Shown one piece after another: positions 41,496-54,539 of a stretch of 64,000 bases of DNA. Positions within the stretch are counted from its first letter, which is position 1; every line of letters starts with the position of its first letter. The stretch covers positions 62,001 to 126,000 of the forward strand of contig NZ_CP100763.1 of the NCBI RefSeq assembly GCF_024296685.1. The letters are read 5' to 3'. Origin of the DNA: Natrinema marinum. GTDB lineage: Archaea > Halobacteriota > Halobacteria > Halobacteriales > Natrialbaceae. Made by a program: the position numbers and the translations under genes. The notes under the pieces are model-generated. The model made no database searches, had not been told where the DNA came from, and saw nothing but the letters and a program-made list of their open reading frames with translations.

Positions 41496-42743
41496 TCACC
41501 GACCGCCGTCGCGCCCGCTCGACCCCGGTCTCCGCTCGCGCTCGACGATGACGCCGCCGGCACCGACCGCGACGTCGACGGGCGCGGTCGCCAGTCCGGC
41601 GTCGACGTCGGCGCTCGAGCGGGCCAGCGCGAGGCCGAGCAGCGACTGTTCGGTGGGTACGTCGCGCTCGAGCCAGCGGACGCTCCGGTCGCGCTCGTAG
41701 AGTCGGCCGCCGCTCGCGACCGCGAGAGCGTTCCCGCCGGTCGAGCGAATCGACTGCAGGTCCCCCTGACCGACGGACAGTGGCGTCCAGTTCTCACAGC
41801 GGGGATCGTACCGATAGGCGATCCCGTCGGCGCCGGCGATGAAGACGGACTCGTCGTCGGCCCAGACGTCCTGAAAGTTGACCTGGGCGTTGCGGACGCC
41901 GATCCGCTGCCACTCGTCGGTCGGAGCGGTATCCGTCGGTTCCGTATCCGCCGGCGCACCGTCTCTGGGGTCGCTTCTCGGCGACTCGTCGCCGTCCGAT
42001 CCGTCGGACCGGGGCTCGAGGTAGGCCCCGCTGCTGGTGTCGACGGCGTAGAACCCGTCGGGGCCGGCGGTCAGGCCGGTGATCGTCGACCCGCCGCCCG
42101 GTTCGACCACTGCGCCCCACGTCGGACAGCCGTTCTCGACGATGCAGTCGAGCACTTCCCCGGAGCCGTTCGCGACGCGGACGCGTTCCTCGCCGGTCTT
42201 CCCGGTGACGGCGATCGCTTCCCAGGTGCTCGTCTTCTCCATCGGCGCGGAGTAATCGCTGAGGTGGCCGTCGGCTACGTCGTAGTAGCCGAGTGCGCCG
42301 CTGTCGCCGGCGAACCAGAGCCGACAGCCGTCGTCGGTTGCGCCGATAGCCCGGAGGGTGTTCTCCGAGACGTTGGGGCCGCGTTCTAAGAGGACGCGCC
42401 AGCCGTCGTCCCCTCGGTGGAGGAGGAGTCCGCCCTCGCCGCAGGCGTAGGGGCCGTCCTGTCCGTGGACGACGCCGTGGAGGGTCCGCGACGCGGGCGA
42501 TTCGACGAGTTCCCAGTCGGCGCTCGTCCCGGTTCCGGGGTCGACTCCGTCGCTCGAGGCCGCGACGGCGGCATGGTCGCCGTCGGAGCGTGTGTCACCG
42601 TCTCCGTCGTTCTCGGAGTCGGCGACGGGTCGATCAGCTCCTCGGCCGTCGCTCTCGCCGTCTCCCTCGTCGAGCTCCGGCAACTCGAGGGGCCCGAACC
42701 AGCCGCGGACGTCGCGCAGCGACCGCTCGAGTCGGTCTCTCAT
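41496..42743 (-). CDS. beta-propeller (YCF48-like) protein without signal peptide
   Basis: A 415-residue protein. The first 70 residues are acidic and disordered. The rest shows repeated beta-propeller blades with the pattern 'GDSGALGYYDV' and 'YACGEGGLLLHRGDDGW'. An acidic, Pro/Thr-rich loop lies near 250-280. It is clearly a paralogue of the Tat-lipoprotein at 53568-54539 (shared 'AGDSGALG.YDV', 'SAPMEKTSTWEAIA' against 'SAPLEKTTSWTAIA') but has no export signal, so it should stay in the cytoplasm. Its start overlaps the stop of the GDH-like gene upstream (ATGA). Predicted to be a binding partner of that protein or of another complex. Confidence 0.87.
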   Translation of the reverse strand: MRDRLERSLRDVRGWFGPLELPELDEGDGESDGRGADRPVADSENDGDGDTRSDGDHAAVAASSDGVDPGTGTSADWELVESPASRTLHGVVHGQDGPYACGEGGLLLHRGDDGWRVLLERGPNVSENTLRAIGATDDGCRLWFAGDSGALGYYDVADGHLSDYSAPMEKTSTWEAIAVTGKTGEERVRVANGSGEVLDCIVENGCPTWGAVVEPGGGSTITGLTAGPDGFYAVDTSSGAYLEPRSDGSDGDESPRSDPRDGAPADTEPTDTAPTDEWQRIGVRNAQVNFQDVWADDESVFIAGADGIAYRYDPRCENWTPLSVGQGDLQSIRSTGGNALAVASGGRLYERDRSVRWLERDVPTEQSLLGLALARSSADVDAGLATAPVDVAVGAGGVIVERERRPGSSGRDGGR

Positions 42744-44023
42744 CGCACCACCTCGTAGGCGGCGGCGACGCGGGAGAGGCCGACGCTGTAGGCGGCCTCG
42801 CGCCAGCTCAGCCGGCAGCTTTCGCGGCGGTCTCGCACGTCGTCGACCGCGTCGGTGAGCGCGTAGCCGAACTCGTTGGTCACGCGGGCGTCGCTCAGCT
42901 GATCGCGTCCGTTGCTATCGACCCACTCGAGGTGGGCCGCGATCGGCCGGCCGACCGTCGCGAGCACGTCGGGAACGACCGGGATGTCCCGCTCCGAGAG
43001 GATGGACTGGCCGCCGGGGGTGACGCTCCCGGTCGCCCCTTCGACGACGAGGTCGGCGGCGATCGTCTCGGCGTTCTCGGCGGTCACGACCGTTGCGGGC
43101 TCGGCGAGGACCAGCACGTCGGCGTCCCGTCCGAGGACGTTCTCCGTGCCGGTCACCGTCCCGTCGTCGTACGCCGAGAGCGCGTCGGGGCGCTCGAGGT
43201 AGCTCGGGACGAGATCCGTATCGAGCCCGTTCTCACTCTCGGGGGCGGTGAGTCCGGCCCCGTCGCTGCACATCGCGACGACGGTGCCGCCCTGGAACTC
43301 GAGGAGGCGGGCGGCCGTCGCGCCGAGGTGGCCGGTGCCGTAGACGGCGATCGTCGCGTCGGACAGCGGGCGATCGTGGTCGGTCTCGAGGAGGTCCTGC
43401 GTGACGTGCGCGACGCTGTGGCCGCTTGCGCGCGTGATGGCTCGAGTGCCGCCAAGGGCCGGCGGCTTGCCGGTGACGGCCCCCCGCTGTGGGCCGTCGG
43501 GGCGGCCGGCGATGGCATCGGCGACCTGCGCCATCGTCCGTTCGTCGGTCCCGACGCCGGGGGTGAGCACGTCGGTTTGGGAGCCGATGCCGGTGACGCG
43601 AGTCGCGTACGAGCGGGTGAGGTTGACGCGCTCTGCTCGGGAGAGGTCAGTTGGATCGATCGCGATCCCCCCTGCGGCACCGCCGAAGGGAACGTCGGCG
43701 ATCGCGGCGCTGACGGTCGTCGCGGCCGCGAGGCCGGCGCAGTCGTCGCCGGTCAGCCCGAGATCGTATCGATGCGGACCCAGATAGGGGCCGCGGACGC
43801 CGTCGTGGCGGACGCGGTACCCCTCACAGATGCCCCGGCTGCCGTCGTCGCGTTCGAACGGCACCGTGGCTCGCTGGCGCTGGCGGGGGTAGAGGAGTCG
43901 CTGCTCGATCTCGTCCGGAAGCGTGAGACGACGCGCGGCAGCGGTCGCGTACGTCCAGGGCGCATCGAGATCGGGAGTCGTTCGACTGGTCTCGTCGCTA
44001 TCGGTGTCGTGAAATGATGTCAT
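42740..44023 (-). CDS. glutamate dehydrogenase-like protein lacking catalytic residues
   Basis: A 427-residue protein with the Glu/Leu/Phe/Val dehydrogenase fold: an N-terminal substrate domain to about residue 205 and a Rossmann domain with 'IAVYGTGHLG' at 225-234. The active site is gone. Where the family has YKGG it has YLGP (Leu81). MTWKNA is TTVSAA (Ser105 for the substrate Lys). GAKGGI is GAAGGI (Ala117 for the catalytic Lys). PDVGT is PGVGT (Gly156 for the catalytic Asp). Oxidative deamination should be impossible. The dinucleotide loop is kept, so it may bind NAD(P) as a regulator or scaffold. It is coupled by ATGA to the propeller gene. Confidence 0.9.
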   Translation of the reverse strand: MTSFHDTDSDETSRTTPDLDAPWTYATAAARRLTLPDEIEQRLLYPRQRQRATVPFERDDGSRGICEGYRVRHDGVRGPYLGPHRYDLGLTGDDCAGLAAATTVSAAIADVPFGGAAGGIAIDPTDLSRAERVNLTRSYATRVTGIGSQTDVLTPGVGTDERTMAQVADAIAGRPDGPQRGAVTGKPPALGGTRAITRASGHSVAHVTQDLLETDHDRPLSDATIAVYGTGHLGATAARLLEFQGGTVVAMCSDGAGLTAPESENGLDTDLVPSYLERPDALSAYDDGTVTGTENVLGRDADVLVLAEPATVVTAENAETIAADLVVEGATGSVTPGGQSILSERDIPVVPDVLATVGRPIAAHLEWVDSNGRDQLSDARVTNEFGYALTDAVDDVRDRRESCRLSWREAAYSVGLSRVAAAYEVVR

Positions 44024-44568: not shown

Positions 44569-44895
44569 TCAGGGCCCGAATTCCTTCCGATGTTCTCGGT
44601 AGAGGACTGCGACGAACACCCCCAGCGGCAGCAAGCCGAGGATGATCAGCACGAGCCCGGCGTCGATGGTGGCGGGAAGCTGTAACTGCGCGAAGAAGTA
44701 CGACAGGACCCCGACTGCGGCCGTGAGCAACAGCGTGATACACGACGCGACGAGTCCGAAGCTCAGCTTCCGATACTTCCACTTGAGGTTGTCCGACCGG
44801 CGCAACAGGTTGATCAGGACGACGGTCGACGGGATCGTGATCGCGATCAGTTGAATGAGCATCAGTGCGACATCGGTGCTTGGTGTAGTTGACAT
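44569..44895 (-). CDS. small membrane protein with three helices (108 aa)
   Basis: A 108-residue protein. Hydrophobic segments lie at about 10-29, 44-66 and 76-97, the last followed by 'YREHRKEFGP', a positively charged end. No cysteine or charged residue lies within the helices except near the ends. It stands 86 nt upstream of the PadR gene on the same strand. Pairs of a PadR or similar regulator with a small membrane protein are common in haloarchaea, but the function of this one is unknown. Confidence 0.82.
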   Translation of the reverse strand: MSTTPSTDVALMLIQLIAITIPSTVVLINLLRRSDNLKWKYRKLSFGLVASCITLLLTAAVGVLSYFFAQLQLPATIDAGLVLIILGLLPLGVFVAVLYREHRKEFGP

Positions 44896-45078: not shown

Positions 45079-46620
45079 CTACCGCCATTCGCGTGCGTGC
45101 GACGGACCGTCCGCGAGCGACCACGGATCGTCGAGCGCGCAGTTTTCGCCCACCAGCGCGCGGGCGAGGGCCGCGAGGAAGACGAGCTGGCCGGCCGCGA
45201 TGACGTAGGCGCCGACGGTCGCGAGCTGGTGCAACGGCGCGTAGGTCGCCGGGTACGTCGCCACCCGGCGCGGGAGTTCCGCCAGCCCGACCACCAGGAG
45301 CGCGCCGAAGGCGACGGCGACGCCGACGATCGTCAGCCAGCCGTGCAGGCGGGCGAGCCCCGGCTCGAGGCGCCGTCCCGTCAGGAGGGGACACCAGTAG
45401 TACGCGCCGGCGACGAGCGCGAGGCCGACGAAGCCGGCCAGCAGCAGGTGGAAGTGGGCGACGACGTAGTAGGTCCCCGTGTAGCGGACGTTGATCGGGA
45501 CGACGGCGAGGAAGACGCCGGTGACGCCGCCGACGACGAAGAAGCCGACGGCGGCGACGGCGGCCAGCATCGGTGCAGTATAGCGGATCGCGCCGCCCCA
45601 CAGCGTCGCGAGCCAGGTGTAGAGCTTCGCCGAACTCGGCAGCGCGACCGCTAGCGTGGTGCCCATGAACACCGTCCGAACGGACGGCCCCATCCCGGTC
45701 GCGAACATGTGGTGGGCCCAGACGGTGAAGGAGACGACGCCAATGGCGAGCGTCGAGTAGACCGAGGATCGGCGGCCGGCCAGCCGTCGGCCGGCGAAGC
45801 GCGGCAGGACGTGACCGACGATCCCCATCGGCGGCAGGACCAGCACGTACACCAGCGGATGCGCGAAGAACCAGAACAGGTGCTGCCAGATCAACGGCCC
45901 GCCGTTCCCGAGGAGGAACGCGGTGCCGAACGTCCGATCCGTGAGCAGCAGGGCGACCGTCATGGCGAGCACCGGAAAGGCGACGACCGACATCGCCGCG
46001 CTCGTCAGCACCGTCCAGGTGAACGTGTCCACGTCGAGCCACCTGATCGACCGCCGACAACGGATCGTGACGACGAGGTTGACCGCCGTCGCCGCGGTCC
46101 CGACAGACACGAGCAGGAGGCCGACCAGCACGGCGTCGACCGCCGGGTTCGGCGACAGGATGCTCAGCGGTGGGTACAGCGTCCAGCCGCTCGCGACCGG
46201 CTCGAGGCCGGCCACGCCGAGGATCCCGCCGATCGTGCCCGCCCGGAGCGACAGCGCGGCCGGCACCTGCAGCCAGAACGCCCAGATGCCGAGCCGGGGG
46301 AACGCGGTCCGGTCGGCCCCGATCAGCGGGGGGACGGCGGCGTAGGCGAACCCCCAGATCGCCGGCAGCGCGAACAGGAACAGCATCGTCAGCCCGTGGG
46401 TCGTGAAGAAGGCGTTGTAGGTCTCGGCCGGGAACCGGTCGAGTCCCGGCGTGACCAGCGCGGTCCGGAGCAACAGCGCGTCGAGTCCGCCCCACGATCC
46501 CATCGCCAGCGCGAAACCGAGGTACCAGCGGCCGAGCCGTCGGTGGTCGACCTGCCAGAGTCCCGCGAGGGTTCCGTTCGTGGCCTCGAACGCGCGGCGC
46601 GGCGTGGACCGCCGGCTCAT
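45079..46620 (-). CDS. heme-copper oxidase subunit I-like protein
   Basis: A 513-residue membrane protein with about 12-13 helices. Metal ligands are all present: His75 (TTHGLT, low-spin heme), His254 with Tyr258 (FFAHPLVY, CuB and cross-link), His303 and His304 (WAHHMF, CuB), His389 and His391 (AHFHLLL, hemes). A K-channel Lys is likely at 332 (SSAKLYTW). Unusual points: the motif is HPLVY instead of HPEVY, so the D-channel-end Glu is Leu256, and no YS pair replaces it. No subunit II, III or heme A synthase gene is nearby. The start overlaps the upstream MFS gene by ATGA. Confidence 0.9.
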   Translation of the reverse strand: MSRRSTPRRAFEATNGTLAGLWQVDHRRLGRWYLGFALAMGSWGGLDALLLRTALVTPGLDRFPAETYNAFFTTHGLTMLFLFALPAIWGFAYAAVPPLIGADRTAFPRLGIWAFWLQVPAALSLRAGTIGGILGVAGLEPVASGWTLYPPLSILSPNPAVDAVLVGLLLVSVGTAATAVNLVVTIRCRRSIRWLDVDTFTWTVLTSAAMSVVAFPVLAMTVALLLTDRTFGTAFLLGNGGPLIWQHLFWFFAHPLVYVLVLPPMGIVGHVLPRFAGRRLAGRRSSVYSTLAIGVVSFTVWAHHMFATGMGPSVRTVFMGTTLAVALPSSAKLYTWLATLWGGAIRYTAPMLAAVAAVGFFVVGGVTGVFLAVVPINVRYTGTYYVVAHFHLLLAGFVGLALVAGAYYWCPLLTGRRLEPGLARLHGWLTIVGVAVAFGALLVVGLAELPRRVATYPATYAPLHQLATVGAYVIAAGQLVFLAALARALVGENCALDDPWSLADGPSHAREWR

Positions 46621-47993
46621 CGGTACCCGTCGAAGCTGAACGCGCGGACCAGTTCGCGCACGCCGAGCAGGCCGACCGTCGTCGCGGCGGTGACGGCCAC
46701 GAGCGGATCGATCGCGTACAACAGCCCGCCGAGCAGCGGCGCGGGGACGACCGCGACTTCGACCCCCGTCCTGATCTCGGGCGGAAGCTCGCTTCCGGGG
46801 ACCGGTGCGGCGCGAGCGCTCGCTCCGGCGGTCGGCCGGATCGGCTCGATGACGGTTCGACAGCCGAGCGCACCGAACAGGGCGGCGACGGCGCTGGCTC
46901 GAGCCGGCGCGACGACGAGCGCCATCGGCACCAGCGAGAGCCCGGTTAGGCCGAGCACGAGGAGGTGTCGCCGATCGATTCGGGAGACGAGCGCGGGGGC
47001 CGCCATTGCACCGAGGATCGCACCGCCGGCCTCGGCGAGGACGAACAGCCCGAAGACGGCGGTCGGCGCGAACGAGAGGCCGCCCATCGAGAGGCCGATC
47101 GCCCGGTACTCGGCGACCAGCAGGATCAGATACGGGAGGATCCCCGCGAACGCCACCCGAACGAGCGCGTCGCCGATGACGGCCCACCGACGACGGTCGG
47201 GGAGCCGCGAGACGGCGTCCCGGACGACGGTGAGCGAGGAGTCGGCGTCGCCGGACCGACCGTCGCGTCCCGGCCGGCCGCCGAGCAGCGGCGGTCGGTC
47301 GCGGACGCTCCCGAGCGCGACCGCGCCGACGAGGGCGGTCGTCGCGCCGGCCGCCGCGAGGAGCGCGAAACCGGCACCGACGGCGTCGGCGCTCGCCATG
47401 GCCGCCGTCGCGATCACCGCCGCGGCCGCGACGCCGAGTGCGCCGACGACGATCCGCGTTCGTCCGTTGGGGACGGTCACCCACCGCGGGGATCGGTCGC
47501 CGGCACCGTCGGCCTCGAGACCGTTCCCGCTCGAGGGCGGCGTCGCGGCGCACCGCTCGGTCGGCCAGAGCCCGCGTGCGGGGCCGGCGAGGTGCCAGCC
47601 TCCGAGGAGGGCGACGCCGAGCGCGAGCCAGCCCAGCGCCGACAGCGGCGTGCCGAGCAGACTATCGAGCGTCGGCGCGCCCGCCCAAGTGAACAGGCCG
47701 ATCGCGGCGAGCACCGTCGCCAGCAACGCGGCTGCCGTCGACCGCGTCCCGACGGCCGGCGTCGACCCGCCATCCGTCACGGCGCGCGATCGTTCGGACG
47801 CGGCGACGGCGATGCCCAGCCCCAGGGTCACGAGCACCCCGACGACGATCGGGCCGTAGCCGAGCGCGGCGAGGTACTCGGGGAGGTAGCGTTCGGCCAG
47901 CCGAACCAGCCCGTGGGTCGCCACGAGGGCGGCGAGGCAGACGAGTCGAACCGGATCGCTCCGATCGGTGCTATCGGTCGATGGTGGTGTCAT
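46617..47993 (-). CDS. MFS-like membrane protein
   Basis: A 458-residue membrane protein with about 12 hydrophobic segments. Hydrophilic linkers lie near residues 70-85, 145-180 and 245-270. The second half contains 'GLFVLAEAGGAILGAMAAPALVSRIDRRHLLVLGL', which resembles an MFS loop, but the typical MFS signature is weak. Its stop codon overlaps the start of the oxidase subunit I gene, so the two are translated together. This suggests a transporter serving the oxidase (for example copper or heme), which is inference only. Confidence 0.78.
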   Translation of the reverse strand: MTPPSTDSTDRSDPVRLVCLAALVATHGLVRLAERYLPEYLAALGYGPIVVGVLVTLGLGIAVAASERSRAVTDGGSTPAVGTRSTAAALLATVLAAIGLFTWAGAPTLDSLLGTPLSALGWLALGVALLGGWHLAGPARGLWPTERCAATPPSSGNGLEADGAGDRSPRWVTVPNGRTRIVVGALGVAAAAVIATAAMASADAVGAGFALLAAAGATTALVGAVALGSVRDRPPLLGGRPGRDGRSGDADSSLTVVRDAVSRLPDRRRWAVIGDALVRVAFAGILPYLILLVAEYRAIGLSMGGLSFAPTAVFGLFVLAEAGGAILGAMAAPALVSRIDRRHLLVLGLTGLSLVPMALVVAPARASAVAALFGALGCRTVIEPIRPTAGASARAAPVPGSELPPEIRTGVEVAVVPAPLLGGLLYAIDPLVAVTAATTVGLLGVRELVRAFSFDGYR

Positions 47994-48084: not shown

Positions 48085-49590
48085 TCACTCCAGTCCGCGG
48101 TCCTCGAGCGCGTAGGCGACCCGCTCGAGGGCCTTGTGGGCGTGATAGAGGACGCCGGCGACGTGGGGAGCGAGCCGATTCCCGAGCCGGACGCGTTGCT
48201 CGGGATCGAGGGCGACGTACACCTGAATCGCGAGGATCGGGGTGGCGACGACGTTGAACAGGGTCGTGAACGTGCCCGAGGCCGAGCCGCCCGCGGCGCT
48301 GTGAGCCGGGACGAGGCCGAGGCCGCCGAAGACGAATTCGACGACGAGGCCGGCGACCACCGCCGCGAGGAAGAACGCGACGAAGATGGCGAGGGCCATG
48401 CGGGTGCCGTAGTAGCGCCGGTAGGTGCGGACCAGCGGGAGGATCAACAGATCCGCGAAGATGAAGGCGAGGACGCCCCCGAAGGAGACGCCGTTGTCCC
48501 AGAGGACGACCGCGAAGGGGACGTTGCCGACCGAACAGAGGAACGTCACCACGCCGACGACGGCCCCGAGGACGACGTTCGAGACGGACCGGAGGACGGT
48601 CCCCTCCGCGCCGACGCCGAAGAGCGCGGTCCACCAGGCGGTCGGCACGAGCGCGGCCAGCAGCCCGGCGATGAGAAAGCCAAGCGCGATGTCGCGCCAG
48701 AGCATGTCCCACTCGCGGATCGCGTTCGCGGTCGCCGCCCGCCAGCGGTCGGCCTCGAGCAGCGCGGGCCCGGCGGTGACCGCCTCCCGGTCGTCGCCTG
48801 GATCGTACGCGCCGCGACAGCCGCCACAGCAGAAGTACCGGCGCTCGCCGTCGAACTCACGAACGACGGTGTCCGCGTCGGTCGGCTCCGCGGCCATCCC
48901 GCAGGTGGCACACTCGATCTCCTCGAGCGCCCGCGCGTGGGTTCGAGCGCGGTCGACCCACGACTCGGGAACGAACCGGCGGTAGACCACCGCGACGACG
49001 GCGACGGCGACGAGACCGCCGACGATCTCGGCGGCGGCGAACTGCCAGCCGAGCAGGATCGTCACCACGAGCGCGAGTTCGAGGACGAGATCCGTGCTCG
49101 CGAACTGGAACGCGCCGAGGCTGGCCGCGGCGGAGGCGCCCTTGGTGAACAGCGTTCGGGTCGTCGCCACCGCCGAGAACGAGCAACTCGAGGAGGACGC
49201 GCCGAAGACGGTGCCGTAGCCGATCTCCCGCCAGCCGTCGTCGCCGAGGTAGTCCGTGAGCCGCTCCTCGGCGACGAACTCCTGGACGGCACCGGTGATC
49301 GTAAAGCCGAGGACGAGCGCCCACCAAGTGTCCCAGGCCATCCGGGCGGCGATGGCGACGCCCTCGAACAGCCCGAGCAGGAACGCGCCGAGCAGCCCGA
49401 CCAGCCGGGCCGCGAGCGCGAGCCCGCCACCGGTCTGGGCGACGGCCGCCGTACCGATCGGGCGGGCGGCCGGGAGTGGCCACAGAGCCGGATCGCTGTG
49501 ATCGATCGCGAGCGACAGGGCGGCGAGCGGCTGCCCTGCTGCTGGCGCGATGCTGGACGCGTCCGTGAGAGGGTGTATCGCTGAGAGCAT
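48085..49590 (-). CDS. DUF318-type permease with inserted Cys-rich metal-binding domain
   Basis: A 501-residue membrane protein of the permease family that includes ArsP/YraQ. Two membrane halves have the 'SSSSCSFSAVATTRTLFTKGASAAASLGAFQFAST' and 'LCSVGNVPFAVVLWDNGVSFGGVLAFIFADLLIL' patterns. Between them is a soluble domain with Cys at about 227, 230, 254, 255 and 258 (CATCG, CCGGC), like YHS/TRASH metal-binding domains. A metal, arsenical or thiol-linked cargo is likely. The start is uncertain: ATG 49590 is chosen; a TTG at 49728 is in frame and lies just at the expected transcription start. Confidence 0.82.
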   Translation of the reverse strand: MLSAIHPLTDASSIAPAAGQPLAALSLAIDHSDPALWPLPAARPIGTAAVAQTGGGLALAARLVGLLGAFLLGLFEGVAIAARMAWDTWWALVLGFTITGAVQEFVAEERLTDYLGDDGWREIGYGTVFGASSSSCSFSAVATTRTLFTKGASAAASLGAFQFASTDLVLELALVVTILLGWQFAAAEIVGGLVAVAVVAVVYRRFVPESWVDRARTHARALEEIECATCGMAAEPTDADTVVREFDGERRYFCCGGCRGAYDPGDDREAVTAGPALLEADRWRAATANAIREWDMLWRDIALGFLIAGLLAALVPTAWWTALFGVGAEGTVLRSVSNVVLGAVVGVVTFLCSVGNVPFAVVLWDNGVSFGGVLAFIFADLLILPLVRTYRRYYGTRMALAIFVAFFLAAVVAGLVVEFVFGGLGLVPAHSAAGGSASGTFTTLFNVVATPILAIQVYVALDPEQRVRLGNRLAPHVAGVLYHAHKALERVAYALEDRGLE

Positions 49591-49746
49591 AGCGGGGACT
49601 CGAGCTGACTCCGTGATGGCGGCAAAGAAGGCGACCGACCGGGGTGCCGGCCGGACAGTAGCGGCTGTGCTGTTTGGCCAGGAGGTCATCCGCGCCGGTG
49701 GCGCGTCGTCCGGGCCTACCAACAGCAATAACCAATAGATTGTGCC

Positions 49747-50312: not shown

Positions 50313-50485
50313 TGTCTAGATTCATAATATTATTACACAAAATAATCGAAACATACGTCTAGGGGCGGCGATGAGTCCGTATCTTTATTGTAGACACTCT
50401 CACTATTGTGTCAGTTTATACCACTGGCAGCCCTAACCGGGGATACGGTCGGACCGCTCTGTCGGTTCGATCGACCTCCAAACAG

Positions 50486-51052
50486 ATGATTGGTAAATAC
50501 GCATTCTGTCCGACCAGCGGTGCCTCTCTCTCGCGAGAGGTCCACTACGACGAACGCGGCCGTCCGGAACGCGTTCCCCAGTCCGATGACCTCTCGCCGA
50601 ACGCGACACTCGATGCGCCGCTCACGACGGGGAAACGGCGGTCGTCGAGGCGCGCCCTCGTGACCTATTTCCGGCGGTGTCATCGCCGACACGCCGACCC
50701 CGACGACGACCTCGACCGTCGCGCGGCACTCGCGATCGGGCGGCTCAAGCGGACGGCGACGGGACGCCAGGAGCGCGATCTCGTCGTCTGGTACGCGCTC
50801 GGTGACCGCCTCGCTCACGATGGGTTCGACGTAGACTGGATGACGGCACACGCCGAACCACGGTGTCCGGCCTGTGGCGGCCCACTGACCTACGTCGTCG
50901 GTCCCGATGGACCGATCGGCCGCTGTGCCGGCTCGTGCGACGACGCCGGCGACGATCGTCTCGAGACGATTCGGGAGACCGTCCGCTCGCTCTTCGCGCA
51001 AACCTTCCCCGATGACCCGACCCCAGCGACCGATGCGCTCGAATTGCTGTGA
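50486..51052 (+). CDS. zinc-ribbon protein heading a DUF389 cluster
   Basis: A 188-residue protein. A basic N-terminal third is followed by an acidic helical part ('LDRRAALAIGRLKRTATGRQERDLVVWYALGDRLAHDGFDVDWM') and a zinc-ribbon-like set with CPAC near 130 and a second Cys pair near 152-156 (RCAGSC). Start uncertain: ATG 50486 is chosen; GTG 50408 would add 26 residues and lies near a TATA box at about 50381-50393. Its stop lies 50 nt before the DUF389 gene, so it opens a four-gene cluster. Confidence 0.72.
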   Translation: MIGKYAFCPTSGASLSREVHYDERGRPERVPQSDDLSPNATLDAPLTTGKRRSSRRALVTYFRRCHRRHADPDDDLDRRAALAIGRLKRTATGRQERDLVVWYALGDRLAHDGFDVDWMTAHAEPRCPACGGPLTYVVGPDGPIGRCAGSCDDAGDDRLETIRETVRSLFAQTFPDDPTPATDALELL

Positions 51053-51102: not shown

Positions 51103-52116
51103 ATGCGTCTGCTGACGGTGCTTACCTCGTCGGCGTCGAGTACCGACGAGGTCACGGCCATCATCGACCGCCACGACCTCGAGTACAGTCTCACCGACCA
51201 CGCCGACGGCGAGAGTCGGACGATCACGGTGCCCGCCCCCGCACACGCGGTCGAACCGCTCGAGGACGATCTGGCGGCGGTCGAGGGCGACGTGGCCATC
51301 GTCGTCGAGGAGCCGATGGCGATCGTGGGGCGGGGCTGGGACGACTCGCCGCCCGACGGGCGACGCGAGTGGCTGTCCTTCGAGCGCATTTCGCGCAGCG
51401 AGTTGCGGTCGAAAGCGCAGTCGCAACTCCCCTCGCTCGTCATCTTCGCCGCGATGACGGCGATCAGCGGGGTCGTCGCGACCACCGGCGTCCTGCTGAA
51501 CTCGCTCGCCGTCCTGGTCGGCGCGATGGTGATCGCGCCGCTGCTCGGGCCGGCGATGGCCTCGAGCGCCGCGACGGTGCTGGACGAACGATCGCTGTTC
51601 GTCCGCGGCGTCAAACACCAGCTGGTCGGCATGGGCGTCGCGACGACGAGCGCCCTCGCGTTCGCGATCTTCGCGCGGACCTCGCGAGTCATCACGGGCG
51701 CGGTCGACTTACAGGCGAGTCTCGGGCTCGGCAGCCACGGCCTGCCGCCGTCGCTGCTGGTGACCGTCGCGGTCTGCTCGGGCATCGCCGGCGGCCTCGG
51801 CATGGCGACGACCGGGATCACCGATCTCATCGGCGTGATGATCGCGGCCGCGATCATGCCGCCCATCGGCGTCGTCGGCGTCGGCGTCGCCTGGGGCCAG
51901 CCCGAAGCGGTGCTAGGCTCGCTCGTCGTCGTCGCGGTCAACGTCATCGCCATCAACGTCGGCGCGATCGCGACCCTCTGGACCGTCGGCTTTCACCCCT
52001 CGGACCGATCGCGCATCAGGACCACCAGGGGCGCCATCATCAGACGGGTGTTCGTCCTGACCGGCCTGCTACTGCTCTCGATTCGCCTCCTCGAGGCCGT
52101 CTCGAACGGCCTCTGA
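51103..52116 (+). CDS. DUF389 (TIGR00341) membrane protein
   Basis: A 337-residue protein. Residues 1-95 are a soluble alpha/beta (ACT-like) domain ('MRLLTVLTSSASSTDEVTAIIDRHDLEYS'), and five to six hydrophobic segments cover about 125-310. 'LNSLAVLVGAMVIAPLLGPAMASSAA' near 145-170 is the DUF389 signature. The function of this family is unknown; transport or membrane sensing is usually suggested. It ends 24 nt before the next gene, so the cluster is an operon. The start at 51103 fits the first beta strand. Confidence 0.9.
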   Translation: MRLLTVLTSSASSTDEVTAIIDRHDLEYSLTDHADGESRTITVPAPAHAVEPLEDDLAAVEGDVAIVVEEPMAIVGRGWDDSPPDGRREWLSFERISRSELRSKAQSQLPSLVIFAAMTAISGVVATTGVLLNSLAVLVGAMVIAPLLGPAMASSAATVLDERSLFVRGVKHQLVGMGVATTSALAFAIFARTSRVITGAVDLQASLGLGSHGLPPSLLVTVAVCSGIAGGLGMATTGITDLIGVMIAAAIMPPIGVVGVGVAWGQPEAVLGSLVVVAVNVIAINVGAIATLWTVGFHPSDRSRIRTTRGAIIRRVFVLTGLLLLSIRLLEAVSNGL

Positions 52117-52140
52117 ACTCCTTTGAAACGATTCATCTCC

Positions 52141-53571
52141 ATGACTGACGATCCTTCATCACCGACCGCCGACCGGGAGTCCGATCCGGAACCGACCGCG
52201 GGGCCCCGTCCAGACGGGCCTCCCGAACCACCGCGCGACGGTCGCTCGAGCGACGAGACGGACGGGCGACCCGACTACGAGGACCACGTCGATCGCGCGG
52301 GCAGCTCCGACCGCGACGACAGCGACGACTCGCCGCTCGGCGTCTCCCTCGTCGGCTACGTCCTCCGGCTGACGGTCGCCGCGATCGCGGCCGGCGCCCG
52401 CCTGTGCTGGGCGGGGGTTCAGTTCGGCGCACAGTACTTGACTGATACCCGGTCGCGGCGGCGCGCTCGCCGGTGGCTCCTGCTCGAGGGCGACCGGCGG
52501 GTGATCGTCGGCGGCTTCGTCACCGGGATCTTCGCGCTCGCGCTCGTTCTCGGCGTCAGCGACGTTATCGGCGTCAGAGAGAGCCGGTTCGTGACGACGA
52601 TGTTCAGCACGATGATCGCGGGGCTGTTCTCGTTCATTCCGATCGTCGTCGCGGTCAATCAGTTAATCATCTCGCGGCTGTTCGGTACGCCCGATCGCCT
52701 CACCGATCGCATCGCCGGCGTCCACGAGTTCCGCAGCCGGGTCGAGGCCCAGACCGAAGGCGACGGCGTCAGCCCGACCGACCCCGCCCCGTTCCTGGCC
52801 CGGCTGGCCGGGACGCTCGGCAGCCGCGCCGACGAACTCGCGACCGTCTGCGAGGAGCTACAGCGCCCCGCGGCGGGCGACGGCGAGCGGAGTACCGTCG
52901 CCGCCGACGGGGACGACGTGCCGATCTCGGCCCTCGAGTCGATCCGCGGCTTCGCGGCGCGCACGCGCGACCACACGACGGCCCTCTCGTCGCGACTCTC
53001 CGGGGAGACGGAATCGGTCTTCGCGGTCGTCCTCCCGACGATCGATCACGACTACGCCGGCGCGGCCAACGAGGCGCGGCGGCTCCACCGGCGCTTCGAC
53101 GGGGAGCTGTCCGACCGCGCCGAAGCGTTGCTCTCGGAGATTCGAGAACTGTTCGTCACCGCGGACGCGACCCGGCAGTACTTCACGACGATCTACCTCC
53201 AGCGCGAACTCGCGCGGCTGTCGCGGCTGATCACTTACAGCGGCACCGCCGCGATCCTGCTCTCGTCGCTGGTCATCATGATCCACGCGAGCGGCTATCC
53301 GCCGGTGGCCTTCGAGGGGTGGCTGCTCGTCCTCGTGAGCCTCGCGCTCGCGGTCGCCTTCAGCCCGCTCGCGGTGCTGTTCGCCTACGTCGTCCGGATC
53401 TCCGCGATCCTCATGCGGACCTCCGCGCCGGGGGCGTTTACCCCGCCGGGCGGCTTCCACGAGTCACACGGCTCCGCCGGCGCGACCCGACCGGCCGACA
53501 TGGGCGGCCCGGCTCGGGCCGCCGACGCTGATACGGCGGCCGAGGCGCGCTCGAGCCAGCCCGAGCCATGA
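52141..53571 (+). CDS. four-helix integral membrane protein, paralogue of the protein at 3187
   Basis: A 476-residue protein. The first 60 residues are acidic, Pro/Ser-rich and disordered. A short hydrophobic helix near 70-90 is followed by two helices near 120-140 and 155-180, then a helical soluble domain (about 195-345) and two helices near 355-378 and 385-415. The soluble-to-helix junction (TRQYFTTIYLQRELARLSRLITY) aligns with the protein at 3187-4224, so both belong to one family. No catalytic motif is seen. The stop overlaps the start of the propeller lipoprotein by ATGA. Confidence 0.85.
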   Translation: MTDDPSSPTADRESDPEPTAGPRPDGPPEPPRDGRSSDETDGRPDYEDHVDRAGSSDRDDSDDSPLGVSLVGYVLRLTVAAIAAGARLCWAGVQFGAQYLTDTRSRRRARRWLLLEGDRRVIVGGFVTGIFALALVLGVSDVIGVRESRFVTTMFSTMIAGLFSFIPIVVAVNQLIISRLFGTPDRLTDRIAGVHEFRSRVEAQTEGDGVSPTDPAPFLARLAGTLGSRADELATVCEELQRPAAGDGERSTVAADGDDVPISALESIRGFAARTRDHTTALSSRLSGETESVFAVVLPTIDHDYAGAANEARRLHRRFDGELSDRAEALLSEIRELFVTADATRQYFTTIYLQRELARLSRLITYSGTAAILLSSLVIMIHASGYPPVAFEGWLLVLVSLALAVAFSPLAVLFAYVVRISAILMRTSAPGAFTPPGGFHESHGSAGATRPADMGGPARAADADTAAEARSSQPEP

Positions 53572-54539
53572 CCGGCCGGTTCCACTCCAGACGCCGCTTC
53601 CTCTCGACGATCGGCGCCGCCGCCGGCTCGCTGGCGCTGGCCGGCTGCGGCGGCCCCGACAGCCAGTGGATCGCCGCCGACGTGCCCACCGACGCGGCGC
53701 TGTACGACGTCGTGCCGACGGCCGAAGGTACCTACGCGGTCGGCGAGGACGGCGTCGTCCTCGCCCGCGAGGGCGGCGACTGGACCGTCGCACTCGAGCA
53801 CGGCCTCTCGGGAGCTGGCGACGGGCTCCGTACCGCTGCGGTCACGAGCAACGGCCGAGCGCTGTGGACCGCCGGCGACAGCGGCGCGCTCGGGCTGTAC
53901 GACGTGGTCGCCGACCGCGCCGTCGACTTCTCGGCGCCGCTCGAGAAGACCACCTCCTGGACGGCGATCGCGGCCGCTGGACTGGCCGGCGACGAGCGAA
54001 TCACGGCCATCAACAGCTCCGGCGAACTCCTCCGTGGCCGGCGCGACGGTGCGGACGTCTCGTGGGGCGACGTGAGCGAACCGGGCAGCGGCTCGAGCGT
54101 CACCGACATCGCGCTCACGTCGCTGGCCTACGGCTACATCGTCGACACCGACGGCGGCGTCTTCGAGTCCCGCGACGGCGGCGTCACCTGGACCCGCATC
54201 GGGATCGACGGCGCGGGCGTCGACTTCGCGGCGGTCGCGGCGATCGACAGCGGCCACGTCACGGTCGCCGGCGGCAACGGCGCCGTTTACGGCTACAACG
54301 GCGTCGATTGGTCGCGGACGACGCTGGGCGAGCAGCCGATCGCGGCGCTCGCGCGGGACCGCGACACCGCGCTGGCGGTCTCCGCGTCGGGGGTCATCTA
54401 CGAGCGCAGCTTCGACGGCTGGGAACCGCTCGTCCGCCTCCGGCCGGGCAACGACCTGCACGCGGTCGCGCTCGGGACCGCTCGCTCACCGCAACTCGTC
54501 GTCGGCGAGTCGGGAACGGTGTTCGAACGGCGGTACTGA
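53568..54539 (+). CDS. Tat-exported beta-propeller lipoprotein (YCF48-like)
   Basis: A 323-residue protein. A twin-arginine signal (SRRRFLSTIG, residues 7-16) and lipobox AGC near 26 put it on the outer face of the membrane. The mature part has about six blades with 'GDSGALGLYDVV', 'VFESRDGGVTWTRIG' and 'VYGYNGVDWSRTTLGEQPIAALARD', a YCF48-like propeller. It is a paralogue of the cytoplasmic propeller at 41496-42743. It overlaps the membrane protein gene by ATGA, so a physical complex with that protein is likely. Ligand or partner unknown. Confidence 0.88.
   Translation: MTGRFHSRRRFLSTIGAAAGSLALAGCGGPDSQWIAADVPTDAALYDVVPTAEGTYAVGEDGVVLAREGGDWTVALEHGLSGAGDGLRTAAVTSNGRALWTAGDSGALGLYDVVADRAVDFSAPLEKTTSWTAIAAAGLAGDERITAINSSGELLRGRRDGADVSWGDVSEPGSGSSVTDIALTSLAYGYIVDTDGGVFESRDGGVTWTRIGIDGAGVDFAAVAAIDSGHVTVAGGNGAVYGYNGVDWSRTTLGEQPIAALARDRDTALAVSASGVIYERSFDGWEPLVRLRPGNDLHAVALGTARSPQLVVGESGTVFERRY

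Follow-up and report, generated by a model that had tools for sequence, protein, structure and literature searches.

Two relatives of glutamate dehydrogenase (GDH) that lack catalytic activity offer the closest described parallels to the protein examined here. The GDH of Thermus thermophilus is a heterohexamer that contains a catalytically inactive, regulatory protein called GdhA (PMC9570180). The YwlG protein of Staphylococcus aureus is a GDH homolog that has been discussed as a possible pseudoenzyme, whose recombinant form was without activity and which interacts with a ribosome hibernation factor (PMC9522360). Our search of the open literature found no description of the protein characterized below, which we call pseudo-GDH, or of its clade or the gene cassette in which it resides.

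The gene for pseudo-GDH is located in a stretch of 64,000 nucleotides from the haloarchaeon Natrinema marinum (contig NZ_CP100763.1, positions 62,001 to 126,000), hereafter called the window. The gene and its neighbors, with positions numbered from the start of the window, are as follows.

41496-42743, minus strand: beta-propeller partner protein, 415 amino acids; its ATG start and the TGA stop of pseudo-GDH overlap by 4 bp, and the gene is directly downstream of pseudo-GDH in all 25 genomes that carry it
42740-44023, minus strand: pseudo-GDH (protein P0001), 427 amino acids, ELFV dehydrogenase fold without the catalytic residues
44093-44476, minus strand: PadR-family regulator resembling RosR of Halobacterium; a close ortholog is found in exactly 11 of 29 genomes of the genus, those with pseudo-GDH
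44569-44895, minus strand: TM108, a small membrane protein of 108 amino acids that is kept in the cassette
45079-46620, minus strand: COX1-like heme-copper oxidase subunit I, 513 amino acids; its ortholog is found in the same 25 genomes of the family as pseudo-GDH
46617-47993, minus strand: MFS-like transporter, a cassette member
48085-49728, minus strand: ArsP-type permease with a weak TRASH-like stretch, a cassette member
50408-51052, plus strand: zinc-ribbon-like open reading frame at the far end of the cassette
51109-52116, plus strand: DUF389 (TIGR00341-type) membrane protein, a cassette member
52123-53571, plus strand: TM482 membrane protein, a cassette member
53568-54539, plus strand: second propeller (YCF48/PSII_BNR-like), a cassette member

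The reading frame of P0001 begins with ATG and has zero internal stops. Both Pfam domains of the ELFV dehydrogenase fold are recognized well above their gathering scores, with matches to ELFV_dehydrog_N (PF02812; 1.3e-29, 103 bits versus 25.3) and ELFV_dehydrog (PF00208; 3.9e-32, 112 bits versus 23.4). Among named families, haloarchaeal GdhB (NCBIfam NF041398) gives the best match, but the score of 341 bits leaves P0001 far below the cut-off of 620 bits for this equivalog. An AlphaFold run given an input of three sequences returned a P0001 model with a pLDDT of 34, too low to be usable.

Alignment with solved GDHs and with 44 intact haloarchaeal GDHs places Leu81, Ser105, and Ala117 at the positions of the three active-site lysines and Gly156 at that of the catalytic aspartate, while the Rossmann loop reads GTGHLG. 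Because these lysines and the aspartate are present in all 44 intact GDHs compared, their replacement in P0001 is far beyond chance. The initial annotation had named these four losses within a preserved fold, and each is borne out by the Pfam matches and alignments, but its list was short. The residues equivalent to N329, N354, G357, and S361 of GdhB are T331, T356, R359, and A363 in P0001, and the aspartate that follows the Rossmann strand is S253. Thus, although the GTGHLG loop is present, the aspartate and asparagine contacts to the cofactor are gone. From these substitutions we infer that P0001 would have no GDH activity and would not deaminate glutamate, and the automatic label of 'amino-acid dehydrogenase' for this protein is misleading.

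Close orthologs of pseudo-GDH are found in 11 of the 29 genomes of the genus and, at a strict threshold, in 23 of the 125 genomes of the Natrialbaceae. A lower threshold combined with the presence of the neighboring propeller gene added two more divergent members (genomes G120 and G029), whose pseudo-GDH genes are followed immediately by the same propeller gene, and this brings the number of carriers to 25 of 125. When 392 genomes of the order were searched with a profile, the weakest member of the clade, as constituted before these two were added, scored 668 bits and the highest-scoring ordinary GDH reached 410 bits, which is a clean gap.

None of the 25 members retains any of the three lysines, and all 25 reading frames are open. 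The existence of a separate clade that lacks the lysines had been anticipated in the initial annotation. However, the suggested loss of all four residues holds across the clade only for the lysines. The aspartate is retained in 13 of the 25 proteins, and for this reason its loss in P0001 is a local event rather than a trait of the clade. Likewise, the four losses had been called independent, which cannot be claimed from one clade. A role as an NAD(P) sensor had also been proposed, and we have rejected it as unlikely since the residues of the NAD site are degenerate across the clade: the middle glycine of the Rossmann motif is retained in 16 of 25 members, an acidic residue after the Rossmann strand in two, and the cofactor-side asparagine in none. 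Indeed, the Rossmann motif itself is degenerate in several relatives of P0001. In three pseudo-GDHs (L042, L045, and L046), the nucleotide-binding domain contains an inserted acidic stretch of low complexity, in keeping with a loss of nucleotide binding. The most divergent member, from G029, retains the Rossmann motif, the aspartate after it, and the substrate-side N, G, and S residues. Because part of both the cofactor site and the substrate site persists in this protein, its sequence suggests that the lysines were lost first and the cofactor site later.

The pseudo-GDH genes are also under purifying selection, as had been expected. Ratios of dN/dS estimated by the Nei-Gojobori method for the ten closest pairs range from 0.08 to 0.27. 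For matched genome pairs, the values are 0.08-0.21 for pseudo-GDH, 0.15-0.30 for COX1, and 0.21-0.31 for the propeller, and so purifying selection on pseudo-GDH is about as strong as that on the neighboring oxidase gene. With the lysines absent from every member and dN/dS this low, pseudo-GDH is, on present sequence evidence, a conserved pseudoenzyme.

The genomic context of pseudo-GDH offers clues to what this protein might do. On the minus strand, the genes are arranged in the order ArsP-type permease, MFS-like transporter, COX1, TM108, PadR/RosR-like regulator, pseudo-GDH, and propeller. The 4-bp overlap between the pseudo-GDH stop codon and the propeller start codon was measured automatically in 20 of 24 loci, and some of the exceptions may reflect a wrong automatic choice of start. 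The gaps separating COX1, TM108, the regulator gene, and pseudo-GDH are mostly 50-370 bp and allow for separate promoters. Therefore, the link between pseudo-GDH and COX1 rests on co-inheritance. Among the 125 genomes of the family, an ortholog of the cassette COX1 is found in exactly the 25 carriers, as a raw count that, like that for the PadR ortholog, is uncorrected for phylogeny and concerns genes that form one physical locus. Twenty-four of these orthologs score at least 642 bits and that of G029, which lies beside its pseudo-GDH gene, scores 503 bits; the next match (495 bits) also comes from G029, as a second copy. Because carriers and non-carriers are mixed in seven genera (g1, g2, g8, g10, g11, g14, and g16), the genes of the cassette are gained or lost together as a unit. 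In Natrinema zhouii, the cassette is on a 465-kb plasmid. The TM482 ortholog of this species bears the annotation 'cbb3-type cytochrome c oxidase subunit I', a designation that looks doubtful given that the window copy (52123-53571) has no COX1 domain according to Pfam.

The COX1 protein retains the heme and CuB histidines, the tyrosine of the HPxVY motif, and the K-channel lysine. The heme and CuB histidines expected of a functional heme-copper oxidase are present in all 21 aligned members, an alignment that leaves two proteins (G035 and G036) unscored because they were missed by the motif search. In 20 of the 21 aligned Natrialbaceae proteins, the D-channel glutamate is lost through a change of HPEVY to HPLVY, and it is retained in G029 and in the other families. 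Since G029 has a dead GDH and yet an intact glutamate, loss of GDH catalysis appears to precede loss of this proton-path residue on the same lineage. Neither the window nor any of the cassette loci contains a CuA motif of a subunit II, and COX2 genes are located elsewhere in the host genome. The orphan COX1 (45079-46620) might serve as an oxidase that does not pump or, alternatively, as a sensor of oxygen.

The partner protein encoded immediately downstream of pseudo-GDH was modeled by AlphaFold with low confidence (mean pLDDT of 50). Its better part matches seven-bladed propellers in Foldseek searches, including YCF48, and the paralogous second propeller (53568-54539) has a YCF48-like Pfam match. 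These matches support a propeller fold. YCF48 is an assembly factor of photosystem II, and an assembly role for the cassette propeller would be by analogy only. The propeller family is multi-copy (in addition to 53568-54539, copies are found at G000:C1:593437 and 2412423), and there is a tendency toward more matches in genomes with the cassette (about 4-13) than in those without it (mostly 1-3). The PadR-family regulator yields a phmmer score of 58.4 bits against the solved RosR of Halobacterium salinarum, but it belongs to a separate, cassette-specific ortholog group. The resemblance to RosR (PMC3443676) suggests, by analogy, that the cassette might be controlled by oxidative stress.

These observations are consistent with a proposal to which we assign roughly an even chance of being correct, namely that pseudo-GDH is a non-catalytic scaffold or regulatory subunit that is paired with the propeller and serves the oxidase cassette. 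What remains of the GDH fold would act as an oligomeric scaffold or regulatory platform. The protein would be made together with the propeller from the overlapping downstream gene and would probably bind it, and it might help to assemble, localize, or regulate the COX1-based membrane complex of the cassette. All of this would take place under the control of the RosR-like protein.

Several alternatives must be weighed against this proposal. One is that the old cleft binds a different molecule and that pseudo-GDH signals its presence through the propeller or the regulator. In accord with such a ligand sensor, the loops of the cleft have taken on a new sequence that is strongly conserved (GPHRY and FGGAAGG), with alanine at position 117 in 24 of the 25 proteins (methionine in the other) and H84 in 23. 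However, conserved glycine-rich loops may merely hold the fold, and we regard this reading as unlikely. A search with the DNA pattern for FGGAAGG gave matches outside the family, yet the 11 hits that were inspected have no GDH.

Another possibility, raised in the initial annotation, is that pseudo-GDH joins a true GDH in mixed hexamers and there acts as a regulatory subunit. The T. thermophilus heterohexamer with its catalytically inactive regulatory GdhA (PMC9570180) is a precedent, and genomes of the genus with pseudo-GDH also have GdhB. However, GdhB is equally present in the 18 genomes of the genus without pseudo-GDH. The host genome carries one ordinary GdhB (about 42% identical to P0001) and one GdhA (34%), and their genes are at 1.15 and 2.24 Mb, more than 1 Mb from the pseudo-GDH gene at 0.10 Mb. 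Furthermore, identity to GdhB is modest and the C-terminal LWP tail of GdhB is absent from P0001. Thus, mixed hexamers find no support in the genomes, where the pseudo-GDH gene instead tracks the oxidase cassette and the beta-propeller gene. A partnership with the cellular GDH is accordingly less likely than the role as a cassette scaffold, and we consider it quite unlikely overall.

It also seems improbable that the GDH fold has gained a different reaction. The cleft does contain invariant residues that differ from those of GDH, but neither a conserved new set of acid, base, or nucleophile nor a conserved cofactor site was seen among the 25 pseudo-GDHs, and even the aspartate persists in only about half of them. 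Finally, a functionless, decaying gene copy would account for residues lost at many active-site positions, but this reading can practically be dismissed because it is contradicted by the dN/dS values, the uniformly open frames, and the stable linkage and co-occurrence with the cassette; neither a clade relative with the lysines nor a dN/dS near 1, the signs of a single decaying copy named in the initial annotation, was encountered.

Cassettes outside the Natrialbaceae bear on the origin of the putative scaffold. We searched the order with the propeller and then inspected eleven neighborhoods. Six genomes of other haloarchaeal families (G371, G198, G256, G316, G207, and G156) have the same cassette without a GDH gene, two genomes of another family (G215 and G233) have a GDH gene adjoining the PadR gene in the same cassette, and the loci inspected in three more (G180, G129, and G278) have propellers only. 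Most of the cassettes inspected outside the family lack a GDH gene, which means that the cassette as such does not depend on GDH. The GDH-less cassettes (L163, L165, and L169-L172) include DUF389, TM482, two propellers, the ArsP permease, the transporter, PadR, and TM108, and sometimes a TrkA-C/KefB-type antiporter pair. This GDH-less COX1 cassette, which recurs in several haloarchaeal families, is apparently undescribed.

The two GDHs carried by cassettes (L162 4631-5905; L164) retain all 13 of the 13 active-site residues checked. Their sequence identity is 71% between the two and does not exceed 63% with any ordinary GdhB of their genus. Long branches left the place of some members uncertain in a first tree, and we therefore built trees that include the cassette GDHs and trees without the longest branches. 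When rooted on GdhA, the tree unites the cassette GDHs with the pseudo-GDHs in a single clade (support of 100/98), although branches are long, and the pseudo-GDHs are monophyletic (95/88). The grouping persists at 100/99 once the two longest branches are removed, but for this reduced set an AU test did not reject the alternative placement (p = 0.0645). A single capture is supported independently by the fact that both kinds of gene adjoin PadR in the same cassette. Since the cassette occurs either without GDH or with an intact GDH related to the pseudo-GDHs in the tree, it probably captured a GDH that looked functional and that subsequently lost catalysis under selection. It is possible, although we hold the full sequence of events to be doubtful, that the captured dehydrogenase became a dedicated non-catalytic subunit that, with the propeller, assembles or controls an orphan COX1 complex that later lost its D channel. 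If true, this would represent a new kind of oxidase accessory system in archaea. The finding also points to an uncharacterized and widespread haloarchaeal oxidase cassette.

Pseudoenzymes are usually found after the working ancestor has become blurred. In this case, the stages can still be read: some cassettes have no GDH, others have an intact one, that of G029 has an early dead form, and the remainder have the fully remodeled protein. The path by which an enzyme became a non-enzyme can thus be tested directly. The intact cassette-borne GDHs (L162 4631-5905; L164) resemble pseudo-GDH in adjoining PadR and in grouping with its clade, but they differ from it in having the three lysines and the aspartate, the Rossmann motif, the N/N/G residues, and the serine. 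Haloarchaeal GdhB (NF041398) has the same fold and length as P0001, which differs in that the catalytic lysines, the substrate serine, and the cofactor asparagine are all gone. Like pseudo-GDH, the GdhA of T. thermophilus has a GDH fold and is reported to be inactive. However, its partner is a catalytic GDH, whereas pseudo-GDH shows no link to a catalytic GDH and is strongly linked to a propeller and an oxidase cassette. The YwlG protein of S. aureus is not related to pseudo-GDH by context. Inactive relatives of GDH were already known, and what is apparently new here is the clade, its setting in an oxidase cassette, and an unusually complete set of evolutionary intermediates.
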